Source: a virus. Taken from it: a DNA stretch of 29,562 bases. Numbering within the stretch: the stretch's first letter is position 1; every line of letters begins with the position of its first letter. The position numbers and the translations under genes are program-made. The notes beneath the pieces are model-generated. The model made no database searches and was not told the origin of the DNA. It worked only from the letters and a program-made list of their open reading frames with translations. This document shows positions 19,136 through 28,995 of this stretch, piece by piece. Location of the stretch: positions 1 through 29,562 of IMG/VR virus record IMGVR_UViG_3300043570_001162. One strand, 5' to 3'.

Positions 19136-19357
19136 TTAGAACGGTTTATCTACTTTGGACTTGGAAGGCGGTTTTGATGAACTTTGATCGTAATGCTTGT
19201 TTTCTTGTTCTTTTAACTTGACAAGTTGACTGTAATAAAAATTGCGTAAATGTACCGGTAAATTATACGCAATATTTACATTTACTGCTCCGTTGGAAAA
19301 GTAACTTAACTGAAATATTTGTTCGTGGAGATGCAATCTATACTCATGACTCAGGCC
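19136..19357 (-). CDS. Frameshift extension of the gp26-like protein (tail assembly chaperone-type second frame)
   Basis: An open frame of 73 codons with no ATG anywhere lies in the +1 (equivalently -2) frame relative to the gene ending at 19344. It is open only from 19372 downward, because an in-frame TGA sits at 19375-19373. A run of seven T (19364-19358) lies inside the 26-base window between that stop and the zero-frame stop. Slippage of tRNA-Phe on TTT by +1 or -2 would join residues 1-266 of the gp26-like protein to these 73 residues, giving about 340 residues. The extension has HLHEQIFQLSYF and ends in a Lys/Ser/Pro-rich tail. Position just upstream of the tape measure is where tail chaperone frameshifts occur in many phages. 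The alternative is independent initiation at TTG 19336, with a weak GAG six bases upstream. Confidence 0.7.
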   Translation of the reverse strand, partial: GLSHEYRLHLHEQIFQLSYFSNGAVNVNIAYNLPVHLRNFYYSQLVKLKEQENKHYDQSSSKPPSKSKVDKPF

Positions 19358-20156
19358 AAAAAAACTGGACCGTCATCGGCACATCCATCCTTTCTTCATG
19401 ACTGCAACTTGAACACGCAAAGTTAAAAGTCATATCCAATTCAGGAGTTATTTCACGAGCATATGCTCTTAAAGCCATACTATCTTTAGATAACAATTCA
19501 TTATCAACAAATTTGTTAATAGTAGCTCTATCAGTCTTACCATCGATACCGATTATCAGTTTTTTTAAACGTGTAGTAATTTCACTACTACCACCAGATT
19601 TTACAAATTTTGCAGTCGCTTTTAATTCAGCATCTATATCGGTTTCATCTTTTGAATTTAAAAGTCTGAAAGCTATCACTTTCTTGGAGTATGGTAGTTC
19701 AAATTCAAAATGGTTATGACCTTTTTGTACTTTTTCAAACGTATATGGTTTTTCATTTAGTTCGCCTAAATTAACCACATTTTTAGATTCTTCATAACAC
19801 TTCTGACATCTAATTTGTACAGGACCATAATTATCACCGTAAGCCAATCGTCTTGCAGCAACAAACAAAGCGTTTTTATCACACAATAACAAACTATCTA
19901 CGTTTATGTTGGGAGTTACAATCAAACTTTCGAGTAGCTTGTCCAATACAACACCCTTCTTAATTAAATTCTGACTGGTAAGAATATCTTCTTCTTTTGC
20001 AGTCATCATTTTCATATCAATATAACCCAAACTTAGTGGATCATTATCAGAATAAAAATAACCTTTGCTTGGTAAATCAATTCGTTCCGATGGATATGAA
20101 GTAGATTGTGATTCTTTTTGTACAGCACTACGCGTAATTATAATTTCGTCATTCAT
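19344..20156 (-). CDS. T4 gp26-like baseplate protein with two CxxC pairs
   Basis: Resembles the T4 gp26 baseplate-hub family. The protein has 270 residues, longer than T4 gp26 (208). Residues 21-60 (YPSERIDLPSKGYFYSDNDP, LGYIDMKMMTAKEEDIL) match the typical start of this family: a short 'LPSKG' segment, then a 'MTAKEEDIL' helix. Two Cys pairs, C117-x-x-C120 and C248-x-x-C251, could form one zinc site. The C-terminus ends MTVQFFWPES, and the QFF codons are the slippery T7 run that may lead ribosomes into the next frame. Upstream, 48 bases before the ATG, is a 12-mer shared with the tail-tube gene. The tape measure gene follows. Family call is from recall of the N-terminal signature and gene order. 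Confidence 0.8.
   Translation of the reverse strand: MNDEIIITRSAVQKESQSTSYPSERIDLPSKGYFYSDNDPLSLGYIDMKMMTAKEEDILTSQNLIKKGVVLDKLLESLIVTPNINVDSLLLCDKNALFVAARRLAYGDNYGPVQIRCQKCYEESKNVVNLGELNEKPYTFEKVQKGHNHFEFELPYSKKVIAFRLLNSKDETDIDAELKATAKFVKSGGSSEITTRLKKLIIGIDGKTDRATINKFVDNELLSKDSMALRAYAREITPELDMTFNFACSSCSHEERMDVPMTVQFFWPES
19358..19364 (-). promoter_or_regulatory. Slippery T7 run, candidate programmed frameshift site
   Basis: In the zero frame the codons are CAG TTT TTT TGG. A -1 shift fails at once (TTG GCC TGA). A +1 or -2 shift of the P-site tRNA re-pairs perfectly with TTT and continues TTT GGC CTG into the downstream 73-codon frame. Transcriptional slippage on T7 is an alternative mechanism. 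Confidence 0.6.
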
Positions 20157-20220: not shown

Positions 20221-21132
20221 CTATACATTTTTCAGTGAATCTTTTTTACCAATTACCATATTTTTCTTTACTTGTACATTTAATTTGGCTTGATCTTTTT
20301 CTTCCGGAGACTGTGCTGAATTGGCTACCGATTCAGCGTTTTTAAGTTCTTCTTCCGCAGCTACAAGTTCTGCATTTTTAAGATCTAATGTTGCATTTTT
20401 AAGATCCGCTGTTAATTTATCTACTTTTTCTTTGGCGGAATTTATTTTAGCTTCATCTTCTTTTAAGATACTCACAATCAATTTCTTTAATAGCTTCTTT
20501 TGCGTTTCTGTCAATCCAGTAGCGGAAACACCTAATTTGTTATTCATAATATTATATACAGTATCATCGTATTTACCAAACAAATCTTTAACAAAAGACT
20601 TTTTTAGCTGTGGAGTTAAATTAACATATTGAGATCGCAATTGACTAGCACTTCTAGCAGGCATTCCCAATACCGTAAAATCAGTGGTTGGTACAGTGTC
20701 AATATATCCGTGAGTTATAGCTGGTTGTAGTTTAGCTAAATTCTTAGGAATTGGCTGTAAATAAGCTGGCGATCCATCTTTTTTAGTAAATCTACTAAAT
20801 CTCGGATCCTCAGTCATATCTTTTTCACTAACCGCAAAAATAATACTATCACGATTAATATCAATAGGAATTTGCGCAACCAAACTCTGTAGGTTATAAT
20901 TGTTTTTTACTTTAATTATTTTGTTAACAGGTACCCCAGTTAAAGTCATCATTTTGACTTTTTCATCAAAACTAAATGGCGACTTAGGCAGTTCAACTAC
21001 ATCAGTTGTTGTTATATAAACATCGTTACCACCGTATTTACTGCTTAAATAATTGTAAACTGCTTTATGTCCTTTATGAAAAGGATGAAATCTACCTGGG
21101 TATATTACAAATATTTTCTTGCCTAGTTCCAT
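20221..21132 (-). CDS. HxGH-family nucleotidyltransferase (NMN adenylyltransferase/cytidylyltransferase-like) with coiled-coil tail
   Basis: Likely transfers AMP or CMP from a nucleoside triphosphate to a small phosphorylated substrate. Residues 6-170 form the nucleotidyltransferase fold: the first strand and loop is FVIYPGRFHPFHKGH (8-22; His16, His19, His22), and a second basic motif, SASQLR at 161-166, corresponds to the ISxTxxR motif. The GRFHPFHKGH form is closest to archaeal NadM-type NMN adenylyltransferases, but the substrate cannot be read from sequence. Residues about 205-300 are a Lys/Glu/Ala-rich predicted coiled coil (VDKLTADLKNATLDLKN...), not part of the enzyme fold. It sits between the tail-tube and gp26-like genes, with a terminator-like hairpin just upstream, an odd place for a metabolic enzyme. 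Confidence 0.8.
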   Translation of the reverse strand: MELGKKIFVIYPGRFHPFHKGHKAVYNYLSSKYGGNDVYITTTDVVELPKSPFSFDEKVKMMTLTGVPVNKIIKVKNNYNLQSLVAQIPIDINRDSIIFAVSEKDMTEDPRFSRFTKKDGSPAYLQPIPKNLAKLQPAITHGYIDTVPTTDFTVLGMPARSASQLRSQYVNLTPQLKKSFVKDLFGKYDDTVYNIMNNKLGVSATGLTETQKKLLKKLIVSILKEDEAKINSAKEKVDKLTADLKNATLDLKNAELVAAEEELKNAESVANSAQSPEEKDQAKLNVQVKKNMVIGKKDSLKNV

Positions 21133-21191: not shown

Positions 21192-21683
21192 TCAATACTG
21201 TAAAATGCAATAATCCATCTGTACAGTCAAGCTGATTGTAACAGCTTCACCATCATTACTCCAATCCATATCTCCAAAAGAAGCTTCAGTAATAAAGCAT
21301 CCACGTAGACTCCATTCTTCAACTTTATCGCCCACTGGACCAAGAACGTTGATAGTAAGATCTTTTTTATAGAAATCTTGATAACCATCACGTCCCGTAA
21401 CGGATTCATGATGCAAACGTACCCACTCCATTACTGCTTGCGCTCCGCTTGGTACAATTGGATCATACAATTCCATTGTAATTGATTGCCAGACACTCTT
21501 TCCTTTATAGAATGTCTTGATATTGATATGATCAAGTTCTTTTGATGATTGACTTAGTTTTGGTCTATCAGTCTTCTTGATGATAAAAGATGGAATGCCG
21601 TCAACGTACAAGATAAACCTATTTTTAACCTTTGGTTCAAATGCCGTTGCAAAAATTTCGTTTGGATTTAGTAGTTCTGCCAT
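21192..21683 (-). CDS. 19: Tail tube protein, T4 gp19-like
   Basis: Major subunit of the inner tail tube. The 163-residue length equals T4 gp19 (163). The sequence has the family pattern: an N-terminal NEIFATAFEPKVKNRFILYVDGIPSF, then a loop (DRPKLSQSSKELDHINIKTFYKG), VWQSITMELYDPI, a helix (AQAVMEWVRLHHESVTGRDGYQ), and C-terminal strands EEWSLRGCFITEASFGDMDWSNDGEAVTIS split over two sheets, closing with LTVQMDYCILQY. A rare AAGG Shine-Dalgarno-like sequence lies 8 bases before the ATG, consistent with high expression. A strong hairpin follows the stop and a 12-mer shared with the gp26-like gene lies upstream. No sheath gene is in the window; in T4 it would be the gene before gp19, and here its place is taken by a HAD-nucleotidyltransferase gene. 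Confidence 0.92.
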   Translation of the reverse strand: MAELLNPNEIFATAFEPKVKNRFILYVDGIPSFIIKKTDRPKLSQSSKELDHINIKTFYKGKSVWQSITMELYDPIVPSGAQAVMEWVRLHHESVTGRDGYQDFYKKDLTINVLGPVGDKVEEWSLRGCFITEASFGDMDWSNDGEAVTISLTVQMDYCILQY

Positions 21684-21745: not shown

Positions 21746-22915
21746 TTATATTTTAGATAATTCTTTATCAGTTAATTGTGTAACTGTATCTCTTAATTTG
21801 TTTATATACCCAGTTGACCGCAACAGTTTGAATGCTAAATTTTCGCTGCTAAATTCCCCACTCTTATCTAAACCAGCTTGACGCATATCGTATATACGTT
21901 TAGTTAACTTCTTTATTTTATTGATATCTTGTTGTTGTATAGCCACATTAATTGATTGTACTAATTGTTTATACTTCTTTTTAATAGCATCTTTGTCAAC
22001 TTTTATATCTTCATGCTTTGGTTTTTTTACCCAAGTAGATTTCATTAAACTATATACAGATTGACTGTTGTTAATCTCAGACTTGTCTTGAATATAAACT
22101 TCAACTGGATGGTTTCCTATCTTGATATCATGCGATTGATTCCATTTGCTTTTTAAGCCGTCAACATAATTTTTAACTAACTCTTCATCATCGCCTATTT
22201 TTGAAAAATCTACAACCAAGTGCAAATCTATATCGCTGGTCTGAGTCCAATTATATCCGGCAGTACTACCAAGAAAATATATGTCTTCCAATGGTACGGT
22301 CAATTCAGTGTCCTTATAAAATGTATTAGCAACTTTTAAAAGCATATTTAATACATCCGGTTTGATATCATCTTCAGTTGCCCATATTGCTGGATTTAAT
22401 ATACTATTATAAATTCTATGCTTTTCTTTGATTCCAAGTATTTCTTTTAATTGATTTATAGTATCAATTGAATCTTTATGAAGAATTGCTTTACCACCAG
22501 CATTTATAAAATCATTCACAACATCTTCACGGTCATCTATTAATACACTATCAGCAGTTGCAAATTTAGATTTATCTTTTCTATTAGGCACTAAGTTCGC
22601 TTCAAATGTTATGCCTTTATCTTTAAGCCATTGTTGTTTGCCAATCTTTGATTTAGCATCAGCTGCATGACTTAGTATTTGTACATTAGGAAAGCTATTT
22701 ACAAAATTATAAAGCAATTTACCATCTTTCATCCATGGCATATTAGCATAATATTCAGGACTATTTTTATTTACCAACTTAAAACTATTCTGCTTGCCAT
22801 GTAAACTATCATAAGTATCTACAGGTATTCCACCACTATAGCGCTTAAATTGAGCTTCCCAATCACTAAGCACTCCATCCATATCTACATATATTTTGTA
22901 ATCATTACTAATCAT
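21746..22915 (-). CDS. HAD phosphatase (5'-nucleotidase-like) fused to a Pol-beta-type nucleotidyltransferase
   Basis: Two enzymes in one 389-residue chain. Residues 7-160 are a HAD hydrolase: motif I VDMDGVLSDWE (nucleophile Asp11, Asp13), motif II ILSHAA (Ser82), a Lys-rich stretch near 88-101 and motif IV VLIDDRED (Asp127, Asp128); the DMDGVLxDWE form is typical of deoxyribonucleotidase-like phage proteins. Residues 200-280 are a minimal nucleotidyltransferase: FLGSTAGYNWTQTSDIDLHL (Gly216-Ser217, Asp228, Asp230) and HPVEVYI (Glu272) supply the three metal carboxylates. The C-terminal 100 residues are helical and basic, possibly for nucleic-acid binding. Both active sites look intact. Substrates are unknown; nucleotide salvage, RNA end processing and counter-defence are all possible. 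The gene has its own promoter candidate with an operator-like dyad and lies directly upstream of the tail tube. Confidence 0.85.
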   Translation of the reverse strand: MISNDYKIYVDMDGVLSDWEAQFKRYSGGIPVDTYDSLHGKQNSFKLVNKNSPEYYANMPWMKDGKLLYNFVNSFPNVQILSHAADAKSKIGKQQWLKDKGITFEANLVPNRKDKSKFATADSVLIDDREDVVNDFINAGGKAILHKDSIDTINQLKEILGIKEKHRIYNSILNPAIWATEDDIKPDVLNMLLKVANTFYKDTELTVPLEDIYFLGSTAGYNWTQTSDIDLHLVVDFSKIGDDEELVKNYVDGLKSKWNQSHDIKIGNHPVEVYIQDKSEINNSQSVYSLMKSTWVKKPKHEDIKVDKDAIKKKYKQLVQSINVAIQQQDINKIKKLTKRIYDMRQAGLDKSGEFSSENLAFKLLRSTGYINKLRDTVTQLTDKELSKI

Positions 22916-26130: not shown

Positions 26131-28995
26131 TTATAACCCCAATTTATTATTTATTATATCAATTTGATTTTGTTGTTTATCCAAAATTGTTTTCAATTCT
26201 TTAATGCCTTGAATCAACAAAGCAGTAAGTTTTGTGTAATTAATACCACTAATTTTTCCAAATTGATCGTAACTAACAAATTCAGGATACAATTTAGCAA
26301 TTTCTTCTGCAATCAAACCAATATGTAATTCAGATGGACCATTTTTATATCTAAAATATACTGGTACCAATTGAATTATTTTTTCCAAATGTGGAGGCAC
26401 CAATGGACAAATGTCTATCTTAGAATCTTGCGTTGAAGTTTCAACCAAAGTACCAGCTACAGTTAATGTAGTGCCGGATACAGAAAGAAAACTTACACTA
26501 GCAATTGTTGTACTTGGATCAGACCCAGTAGTCTTTACTAAGAAATTTGGTACATTAGTAAATACTCCAGTACTAGCTCCACTTGTACCTGAAACAGATC
26601 CGGTATAAGAAACACCGCTTCCGCCTGCGGTACCACTAGTACCACTTGATCCACTAGTACCACTACTTCCACTTGCACCACTTGTACCACTGCTACCGCC
26701 TGATCCGTTACTTCCACTTGTACCGCTAGTTCCGCCTGTACTGATGCTGGATCCACTAGTTCCAGCCGAACCAGTAGCACCACTTGTACCACTACTACCG
26801 CCTGATCCGTTACTTCCACTTGTACCGCTAGTTCCGCCTGTACTGATGCTGGATCCACTAGTTCCGGCTGAACCAGCAAAACCACTTGTACCACTGCTAC
26901 CGCCTGATCCGTTACTTCCACTTGTACCGCTAGTTCCGCCTGTACTTCTGCTGGTACCACTACTTCCAGCCGAACCAGTAGCACCACTTGTACCACTACT
27001 ACCGCCTGATCCGTTACTTCCACTTGTACCGCTAGTTCCGCCTGTACTGATGCTGGATCCACTAGTTCCGGCTGAACCAGCAAAACCACTTGTACCACTG
27101 CTACCGCCTGATCCGTTACTTCCACTTGTACCGCTAGTTCCGCCTGTACTGATGCTGGATCCACTAGTTCCGGCTGAACCAGCAAAACCACTTGTACCAC
27201 TACTTCCGCCTGATCCGTTACTTCCACTTGTGCCACTAGATCCACTAGATCCACTAGATCCACTTGTGCCACTAGATCCACTTGTGCCACTTGATCCATT
27301 TGTGCCACTAAATCCATTTGTGCCACTACTTCCACTTGTGCCACTGGATCCACTTGTGCCACTAAATCCACTTGTGCCACTACTTCCACTTGTGCCACTG
27401 GATCCACTTGTGCCACTAAATCCACTTGTGCCACTACTTCCACTTGTGCCACTGGATCCACTTGTGCCACTAAATCCACTTGTGTCACTACTTCCACTTG
27501 TGCCACTGGATCCACTTGTGCCACTACTTCCACTTGTGCCACTGGATCCACTTGTGCCACTTGTACCACTAGATCCGTTTGTACCGCTACTTCCACTTGT
27601 GCCACTACTTCCACTTGTGCCACTGGATCCACTTGTGCCACTACTTCCACTTGTGCCACTGGATCCACTTGTGCCACTAGATCCACTTGTGCCACTGGAT
27701 CCACTTGTGCCACTAGATCCACTTGTGCCACTAGATCCACTTGTGCCACTAGATCCACTTGTGCCACTAGATCCACTTGTACCACTTGTACCACTAGATC
27801 CGTTTGTACCACTTGATCCGTTTGTACCGCTACTCCCACTGTCTCCACTTGTACCACTTAATCCACTTGTACCACTAGATCCACTTGTGCCACTAGATCC
27901 ACTTGTGCCACTAGATCCACTTGTGCCACTAGATCCACTTGTACCACTAGATCCACTTGTGCCACTAGATCCACTTGTGCCACTAGATCCACTTGTGCCA
28001 CTAGATCCGCTTGTACCAGCACTTCCGCTACTTCCATATATTATAAGTTGAATTATATAATTGCCATATTGATCAAGTACATAATTGCCATATTGATCAA
28101 GCACATAAATTGTTTCTGATCCACCACTTGTACCGCTTGTACCACTTGATCCACTTGATCCACTTGTACCGCTTGATCCACTTGTACCACTTGATCCTCT
28201 TGTACCACTTGATCCTCTTGTACCACTTGATCCGCTACTTCCACTTGTACCACTTGATCCACTACTTCCACTTGTACCACTTGATCCACTACTTCCATTT
28301 GTACCACTTGATCCGCTTGTGCCGCTACTTCCACTAAATCCACTAGATCCACTAGATCCACTTGTACCACTAGATCCGCTTGTACCGGTACTACCACTAG
28401 ATCCATTTGTACCACTAGATCCACTTGATCCATGACTACCACTTAAACCACTTAAACCACTTGATCCAATTTCGCCATTTGTACCACTAGATCCACTGGA
28501 TCCACTTGTGCCGCTACTCCCACTACTTCCGTTTGTACCACTACTTCCACTTGTGCCACTAGATCCGCTTGTACCGGCTGTACCACTTGTACCACTTGGA
28601 GGATTTATAGAAGTACTGTTAGCTACAGCGTAACCACATTGCGGTGTAGAAAATGTAATTAAAGCTGTATTTTTATTTAAAAGTTCGACATTTTCAGGTA
28701 TTATTAAATTAAAATTTGAATCAAATGTTTGTACGACAACTAGTTGACTATCTAGATTATGATTAAATGTCCACGTGAGAGATGGATTATCACATGTAAA
28801 TGCTTGAGCTGTAGAGAATGTATTACTTCCTCCGGTACCTTTACAATCAATTTCAGCTTGTAGAGCGTCTATTATTTTAAGAAACGGTTTTAAACTAGTG
28901 TCATTAACGCTGGATCTAGCTTTTTTATAATCCTTAATTGCGTTGTTTAAAACACACGCACTTGGAGGACACGTACTATGATTACAACTTGCCAT
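26131..28995 (-). CDS. Collagen-like Gly-X-Y repeat tail fibre with C-terminal S74-type chaperone
   Basis: Probable long tail fibre or virion-surface fibre of 954 residues. Residues 1-130 form a non-repetitive head with several Cys (HSTCPPSACVL). Residues about 132-792 are Gly-X-Y triplets, mostly GTS and GSS, with almost no proline, giving a collagen-like rod. At about 292-320 the rod is interrupted by a twice-repeated YVLDQYGN. The C-terminal 100 residues match the peptidase S74 intramolecular chaperone: Ser854-x4-Lys859 (STQDSK) fits the Ser/Lys self-cleavage spacing of endosialidase-type chaperones, followed by IGLIAEEIAKLYPEFV, ISGINYTKLTALLIQGIKEL and a terminal coiled coil. The chaperone trimerises the fibre and is then cleaved off. 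The usual Asp after the Ser is Thr here. Long ORFs on other frames across the repeats are by-products of periodicity. Confidence 0.88.
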   Translation of the reverse strand: MASCNHSTCPPSACVLNNAIKDYKKARSSVNDTSLKPFLKIIDALQAEIDCKGTGGSNTFSTAQAFTCDNPSLTWTFNHNLDSQLVVVQTFDSNFNLIIPENVELLNKNTALITFSTPQCGYAVANSTSINPPSGTSGTAGTSGSSGTSGSSGTNGSSGSSGTSGSSGSSGTNGEIGSSGLSGLSGSHGSSGSSGTNGSSGSTGTSGSSGTSGSSGSSGFSGSSGTSGSSGTNGSSGSSGTSGSSGSSGTSGSSGSSGTRGSSGTRGSSGTSGSSGTSGSSGSSGTSGTSGGSETIYVLDQYGNYVLDQYGNYIIQLIIYGSSGSAGTSGSSGTSGSSGTSGSSGTSGSSGTSGSSGTSGSSGTSGSSGTSGSSGTSGLSGTSGDSGSSGTNGSSGTNGSSGTSGTSGSSGTSGSSGTSGSSGTSGSSGTSGSSGTSGSSGTSGSSGTSGSSGTSGSSGTSGSSGTSGSSGTNGSSGTSGTSGSSGTSGSSGTSGSSGTSGSSDTSGFSGTSGSSGTSGSSGTSGFSGTSGSSGTSGSSGTSGFSGTSGSSGTSGSSGTNGFSGTNGSSGTSGSSGTSGSSGSSGSSGTSGSNGSGGSSGTSGFAGSAGTSGSSISTGGTSGTSGSNGSGGSSGTSGFAGSAGTSGSSISTGGTSGTSGSNGSGGSSGTSGATGSAGSSGTSRSTGGTSGTSGSNGSGGSSGTSGFAGSAGTSGSSISTGGTSGTSGSNGSGGSSGTSGATGSAGTSGSSISTGGTSGTSGSNGSGGSSGTSGASGSSGTSGSSGTSGTAGGSGVSYTGSVSGTSGASTGVFTNVPNFLVKTTGSDPSTTIASVSFLSVSGTTLTVAGTLVETSTQDSKIDICPLVPPHLEKIIQLVPVYFRYKNGPSELHIGLIAEEIAKLYPEFVSYDQFGKISGINYTKLTALLIQGIKELKTILDKQQNQIDIINNKLGL
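26680..27235 (-). repeat. 102-bp tandem repeats inside the fibre gene (six copies)
   Basis: The word TGATCCGTTACTTCC (plus strand) recurs at 26701, 26803, 26905, 27007, 27109 and 27211, an exact 102-bp period. Each unit encodes 34 residues built on GTSGSNGSGGSSGTSG followed by a variable FAGSAG, ATGSAG or ASGSSG block. The last copy diverges after about 20 bases. Confidence 0.95.
27310..27525 (-). repeat. 54-bp tandem repeats inside the fibre gene (four copies)
   Basis: The plus-strand word AAATCC recurs at 27310, 27364, 27418 and 27472, an exact 54-bp period. Each unit encodes the 18 residues GSSGTSGFSGTSGSSGTS or a close variant. One copy has GTGTCACTAC in place of GTGCCACTAC (encoding Asp). 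Confidence 0.9.
27640..28015 (-). repeat. 18-bp tandem repeats inside the fibre gene
   Basis: Near-perfect 18-bp units (plus strand CCACTTGTGCCACTAGAT) encode GTSGSS repeats. They fill 27640-27785 and 27845-28015, separated by a short divergent stretch encoding GTNGSS-type and GLSGTSGDSG triplets. Confidence 0.9.
28057..28104 (-). repeat. Two tandem 24-bp repeats interrupting the Gly-X-Y rod
   Basis: Copies 28057-28080 and 28081-28104 differ at one base and encode an 8-residue unit (YVLDQYGN). They form a non-collagenous, aromatic insert in the rod, possibly a hinge or docking point. Confidence 0.9.

Follow-up and report, generated by a model that had tools for sequence, protein, structure and literature searches.

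The window, by which we mean the whole 29,562-base virus record analyzed here, carries a gene of the T4 gp26 type that is continued past its stop codon by an off-frame extension devoid of ATG (Table 1). The protein encoded by this gene matches Pfam T4_baseplate with an E-value of 2.9e-12 and 47.2 bits (curated cut-off 24.5) and PHROG 150 with an E-value of 4.8e-13; the latter profile is matched by 33/33 aligned family members. The 3' end of the gene reads GTC CAG TTT TTT TGG CCT GAG TCA TGA, and the +1 frame, which is open from 19372, begins GGC CTG AGT CAT GAG when entered at the GGC at 19357 and runs from there for 73 codons, so that the predicted fused product of gp26 and the extension comprises 339 aa. 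The extension of the window contains a single internal TTG (at 19336, codon 8 of the extension) and zero ATG. Among the 23 genes of the window, only the gp26-type gene is followed beyond its stop by 30 or more off-frame codons that lack an ATG, the other long off-frame continuations being ordinary downstream ATG genes or ORFs. The sequence-only reading had placed the feature at 19136-19375, with an overlap of 26 bases before the stop, no ATG in the 73-codon frame and a -1 frame blocked by TGA; these particulars, coordinates included, are borne out, and -1 reading meets TGA at once in the window. The presence of an ATG-less off-frame extension at the end of the gp26-type gene is confirmed as a real observation.

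Table 1. Features of the gp26-type locus and its flanking tail genes in the window.
Feature	Position	Strand	Basis or remark
Tail tube protein, gp19 type	21192..21683	(-)	PHROG 4542 tail tube E 4e-28; Pfam gp19 E 1e-5
gp26-type gene, short form, 270 aa, G-like chaperone (putative)	19344..20156	(-)	Pfam T4_baseplate PF12322, PHROG 150 'baseplate hub'
A7/T7 run	19358-19364		inside end of gp26-type gene
Slip site TTT TTT TGG CCT	19353..19364	(-)	P-site TTT re-pairs on TTT at +1; A-site TGG replaced by GGC
+1-frame extension, 73 codons without ATG, T-like domain (putative)	19139..19357	(-)	translation; kept in 44/44 representatives
Stop codon of +1 frame	19136-19138	(-)	34 bases before tape measure ATG
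Tape measure protein candidate, 885 aa	16444..19101	(-)	PHROG 58 tape measure E 8e-4; position

The order of genes in the window is tail tube, the pair formed by gp26 and the extension (20156-19136) and the tape measure candidate, that is, the pair lies downstream of the tail tube gene and ahead of the tape measure gene, as is typical of tail assembly chaperone pairs. The same succession of tail tube, gp26, extension and tape measure is seen in Flavobacterium phage immuto, Mel-JY01 and KVP40, and an annotated tape measure gene is found at the matching place in immuto and in Listeria phage LIS04. No gene intervenes between tail tube and gp26 in immuto, KVP40 and LIS04; in the window, these two genes are separated by a cytidylyltransferase-like gene (20221-21132, minus strand). 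Several other genes of the window, all on the minus strand, deserve mention. The gene at 21746-22915 encodes a 389-aa protein that combines a 5'-3' deoxyribonucleotidase-like N-terminus (PHROG 2643) with a domain of unknown function (PHROG 36119). The 432-aa protein encoded at 8653-9951 matches only the C-terminal part of the phage DNA polymerase profile (PHROG 17, positions 954-1231 of 1445), and given this partial coverage, the polymerase gene of the window may be split. The gene at 26131-28995 encodes a collagen-like repetitive tail fibre, and the 435-aa ATG-started ORF on the opposite strand (26744-28051, plus strand) is probably a by-product of the tail fibre repeats.

Relatives of the locus were collected in two IMG/VR scans, of which the first yielded 74 relatives and the second, seeded with immuto, 80 of at least 599. 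The alignment with relatives that had been proposed as a check of the sequence-only reading finds the slip site and the extension kept together in 146/146 loci with a usable end examined in this clade (hereafter, the +1 clade): the first gene ends in a conserved slippery site that joins it to an off-frame extension. Given this conservation of the site and the extension across relatives, a chance origin of the extension is excluded. From the 146 loci, 44 representatives that are less than 85% identical were drawn; they share kinship, and the counts given for them are not independent trials. The slip-site types among these representatives are TTTTTTTGGCCT (n=27), TTTCTTTGGCCT (n=14) and TTCTTTTGGCCT, TTTCTATGGCCT and TTTCTTTACCCT (n=1 each); by codons, TTT_TTT_TGG is present in 27/44, TTT_CTT_TGG in 14/44 and TTC_TTT_TGG, TTT_CTA_TGG and TTT_CTT_TAC in 1/44 each. 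The first slip codon is TTT in 43/44, and CCT is found in 44/44. When the amino acid is the same, the frequency of the same codon is 0.95-1.0 at the two slip codons and the Pro codon vs a background of 0.51 upstream, a comparison in which the Phe/Leu codons are the informative ones and the Pro codon and GG are also constrained by dual coding.

The extension ranges from 68 to 104 codons across the 44 representatives and shows 1955, 1217 and 4872 substitutions at positions 1, 2 and 3, respectively, of the +1-frame codons; this third-position excess indicates that selection acts on the protein encoded by the extension in the +1 frame. A rival reading is that the extension is a separate small gene, translated from a non-ATG start by re-initiation after the gp26 stop, without any frameshift. 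Such a gene could start at the TTG at codon 8 of the window extension, and an ATG does occur just past the stop in cyanophages, KVP40 and Cr30, phages of the -1 class described below (in P-SSM2, the extension is annotated as a separate gene, 'gp51'), and remains in two contigs, L208 and L209, that lack the slip run. However, the 44 representatives of the +1 clade share no conserved start codon in the extension, and in most of them, codons 1 to 32 include no ATG, GTG or TTG; conservation of the extension sets in at the first post-slip codon (GL), upstream of any start; and the slip codons are fixed at synonymous sites. Re-initiation appears very unlikely, and for the +1 clade we reject it on the lack of a conserved start; this rejection does not extend to all phages of the -1 class. 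A clear ATG for the small frame in relatives, or loss of the T run with the frame intact, had been named as findings that would speak against frameshifting: neither a conserved start nor loss of the site is seen in the +1 clade, an ATG just past the stop is present in the cyanophages, KVP40 and Cr30, which use the -1 frame, and the site is lost in L208 and L209, where the extension has an ATG.

With respect to the direction of the frame change, re-pairing at +1 is possible in 44/44 representatives (TTT to TTT, CTT to TTT or TTT to TTC), so that the P-site tRNA could re-pair on the +1 codon at a conserved site, as expected of programmed +1 frameshifting. The T7 run of the window also allows re-pairing at -2, and seven T could permit some slippage of the transcript, which raises the alternative of a -2 ribosomal shift or RNA polymerase slippage on this run. 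The slip-site variants TTT CTT TGG (14 representatives), TTT CTA TGG and TTC TTT TGG contain no run of more than four T and allow no -2 re-pairing, but the frame relation is kept. Because variants without the T run keep the frame relation, both the -2 shift and transcript slippage are rejected as highly improbable, and +1 ribosomal frameshifting is what the site variants leave. Hence the frameshift proposed in the sequence-only reading, which had allowed for either +1 or -2, gains support from the conservation of the slip site and extension and from the fit of the variants to +1; its -2 option falls. In TTT_CTA_TGG and in the TTT_TTT_AGT of LIS04, the slip has to occur at the first Phe codon, so the exact slip codon varies. 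In Gram-positive phages that share this architecture, the sites are TTC TTT CGT, TTT TTT CGT, TTT TTT CAC and TTT TTT AGT, of which TTC_TTT_CGT and TTT_TTT_CGT fit +1 re-pairing. No RNA structure was detected downstream of the site in the +1 class (mean z -0.2, control -0.5, with mononucleotide shuffles), and base conservation among the representatives reveals no conserved Shine-Dalgarno-like element upstream of the slip.

Under the +1 frameshifting scenario, most ribosomes would stop at the gp26 TGA to give the 270-aa short form, and a fraction would pause when the P site holds tRNA-Phe on TTT and the A site the Trp codon TGG, and would slip forward by one base, from TTT_TGG to TTT_GGC, to produce the 339-aa long form with a C-terminal domain of approximately 70 aa. 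The site, its conservation, the coding selection, the homologies and the copy numbers are read from the sequences; we infer the occurrence of the +1 shift, its rate and the role of the Trp codon as the pausing A-site codon. Similar sites are known in prfB (CUU_UGA) and influenza PA-X (UUU_CGU), where the ribosome slips +1 on CUU or UUU in the P site while the A-site codon is read slowly or stays unfilled, and the TTT_CGT sites of the Gram-positive phages match the PA-X type. Unlike prfB and PA-X, the A-site codon here is mostly the sense codon TGG (Trp), there is no stop at the site, and no Shine-Dalgarno-like element is conserved. A tail chaperone pair with a very likely +1 frameshift has been described in a myovirus, HSTV-2 (PMC5009743); HSTV-2 is an archaeal virus, and the likeness is in the +1 direction.

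At the same C-terminal Phe-Phe of gp26, a second class of phages carries an off-frame extension in the -1 frame (S-PM2, P-SSM2, HTVC008M, KVP40 and Cr30, as well as Aeromonas phage Ahp1, Stenotrophomonas phage RAS14, Agrobacterium phage Atu_ph07, Xanthomonas phage XacN1 and L167). All of these have T TTT TTC or T TTT TTT, the canonical U_UUU_UUC/U, at the homologous Phe-Phe, and in several, a stable hairpin is located just downstream (z -4.7 in S-PM2, -4.0 in XacN1, -3.6 in KVP40 and -3.5 in P-SSM2). A slippery site combined with a downstream hairpin is the known arrangement for -1 frameshifting. In several of the -1 phages, an ATG is located just after the gp26 stop, and judging from these starts, separate translation of the extension is possible or likely in these phages and in L208 and L209. 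The latter two, both cyanophage-like contigs, have no slip run left, and their extension has an ATG that overlaps the gp26 stop; in them, the pair is naturally split. In the P-SSM2 and HTVC008M annotations, the extension appears as a short gene of its own, named 'gp51' or 'base plate hub assembly catalyst', and no frameshift is annotated; therefore, the likeness of the extension to gp51 had already been noticed by the annotators of these genomes. Comparison of the extension profiles of the +1 and -1 classes using hhalign gave 94% (E 1.4e-7, score 39), and the full-length fused forms of the two classes align end to end (99.6%).

The same family includes two T4 proteins, gp26 (208 aa) and gp51 (249 aa), both of which match PF12322 (E-values of 9e-64 and 4e-52, respectively). 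PHROG 634 is matched both by the C-terminus of gp51 and by the -1-frame ORF of Ahp1 (E 3e-14), the profile of the -1 extensions matches that of the gp51 C-termini (97%, E 3e-11, score 54), and the full-length fused forms of the -1 class align with gp51 end to end (99.5%). In control comparisons, 100 column-shuffled profiles for each pair scored at most 14.5, vs 39 and 54 for the actual +1/-1 and -1/gp51 extension pairs, and reversed profiles scored below 10. Direct comparison of the +1 extension profile with gp51 was not significant (1.6%), and because this direct match is below 2%, the link between the +1 extension and gp51 is transitive, via the -1 class. PF12322 is present in two copies in T4 and RB43 and in one copy in every other phage with a match; in T4 and RB43, gp26 is short and gp51 is long, with the extension fused in frame. 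The T4 genes are adjacent and divergently transcribed and those of RB43 are in tandem, and unlike the window locus, the two are separate genes without a frameshift. In the family tree, the T4 and RB43 genes form one group (97/91), next to the -1 phages; branches are long, and one of the joins has weak support. On this tree, the +1 state requires at least 2 label changes and the -1 state at least 4. T4 gp26 also weakly matches the gp28 profile PHROG 1140 (E 9e-4), so gp28 (L081:5849-6382), which in T4 is encoded just upstream of the tape measure gp29, may be another distant relative. The gp26-type identity of the first gene recognized in the sequence-only reading stands; the correspondence of the extension to the C-terminal part of T4 gp51, and the membership of both gp26 and gp51 in the family, had not been seen.

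According to a 2016 review, lambda gpG binds to the tape measure protein and the T part of gpGT recruits the tube protein, both forms being absent from the virion; the review names T4 as the exception to G/GT frameshifting (PMC5009743). As in lambda and other long-tailed phages, the window locus combines a short form with a (here predicted) frameshifted long form, with the site near the end of the first gene, and lies between the tail (tube) protein and tape measure protein genes. It differs from lambda gpG/gpGT in the direction of the shift (+1 vs -1), in belonging to phages with T4-type contractile tails and in sequence, with no match found to the lambda gpG / HK97 gp13 family. In the search with VIA-align, the top-ranked PDB structure for the AlphaFold2 model of gp26 (pLDDT 86.5) was the HK97 tail assembly chaperone 2ob9_B, with rmsd 3.9 over 95/104 residues and a Z-score of 4.9, in the ambiguous range (Z <8); this likeness of the model is at most suggestive. 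For the gp51 model, 2ob9 was not retrieved, the VIA list being led by unrelated p32-type proteins with Z <5, and Foldseek found no match in the PDB.

Should the fusion be a structural component of the baseplate hub and not a chaperone of the tape measure, the names given to the family in Pfam, PHROGs and genome annotations would be apt, as would the older T4 genetics that place gp26 in the hub (PMC3004832). The same source, however, lists gp26 and gp51 as hub assembly chaperones, with gp51 needed yet absent from the final particle (PMC3004832), and a short and a long form paired at a place between the genes for tail tube and tape measure constitute the G/GT arrangement; a structural role thus seems unlikely. 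The position, the pairing and T4 genetics argue for the chaperone role, in line with the lambda G/GT-like function suggested earlier, and the locus very probably encodes a two-form tail assembly chaperone, with a short form and a frameshifted long form. By analogy with lambda gpG/gpGT, the short form would coat the tape measure protein encoded just downstream, the C-terminal domain of the long form would recruit the tail tube or hub, and both forms would probably leave before completion of the virion.

It appears likely that T4 fits the G/GT rule after all, with gp26 and gp51 representing the short and long forms split by duplication, and that across the T4-type and jumbo myophages, the Phe-Phe site has switched among -1 shifting, +1 shifting, an ATG-started split and duplication, with the pair kept throughout. 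Under this scenario, the pair would be made in T4 and RB43 without a frameshift, by the paralogous genes gp26 (short) and gp51 (long); slipping by -1 on U_UUU_UUC/U would yield it in the cyanophages, KVP40, Ahp1 and several jumbo phages. Frameshifted tail chaperones are already known, likely +1 cases included. We found no published report of a gp26/gp51 frameshift in the open-access literature, and earlier reports in subscription papers are possible; as far as searched, what is new is a +1 pair within the gp26 family, a single site that serves for both +1 and -1 shifts, and the interpretation of gp26/gp51 as two genes derived from a frameshift pair.

The current annotation of the compared phages misses the extension or splits it off. 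The sequences point to a large uncultured phage clade with +1 shifting at UUU_UGG and CUU_UGG, which would be added to the known cases. The series of loci is a natural one for the study of a recoding site that changes direction or is replaced by gene duplication. If gp26 and gp51 are indeed separate-gene versions of a frameshift pair, the status of T4 as an exception in the 2016 review would be explained, and the two proteins would acquire a testable role in the assembly of the tape measure and hub.
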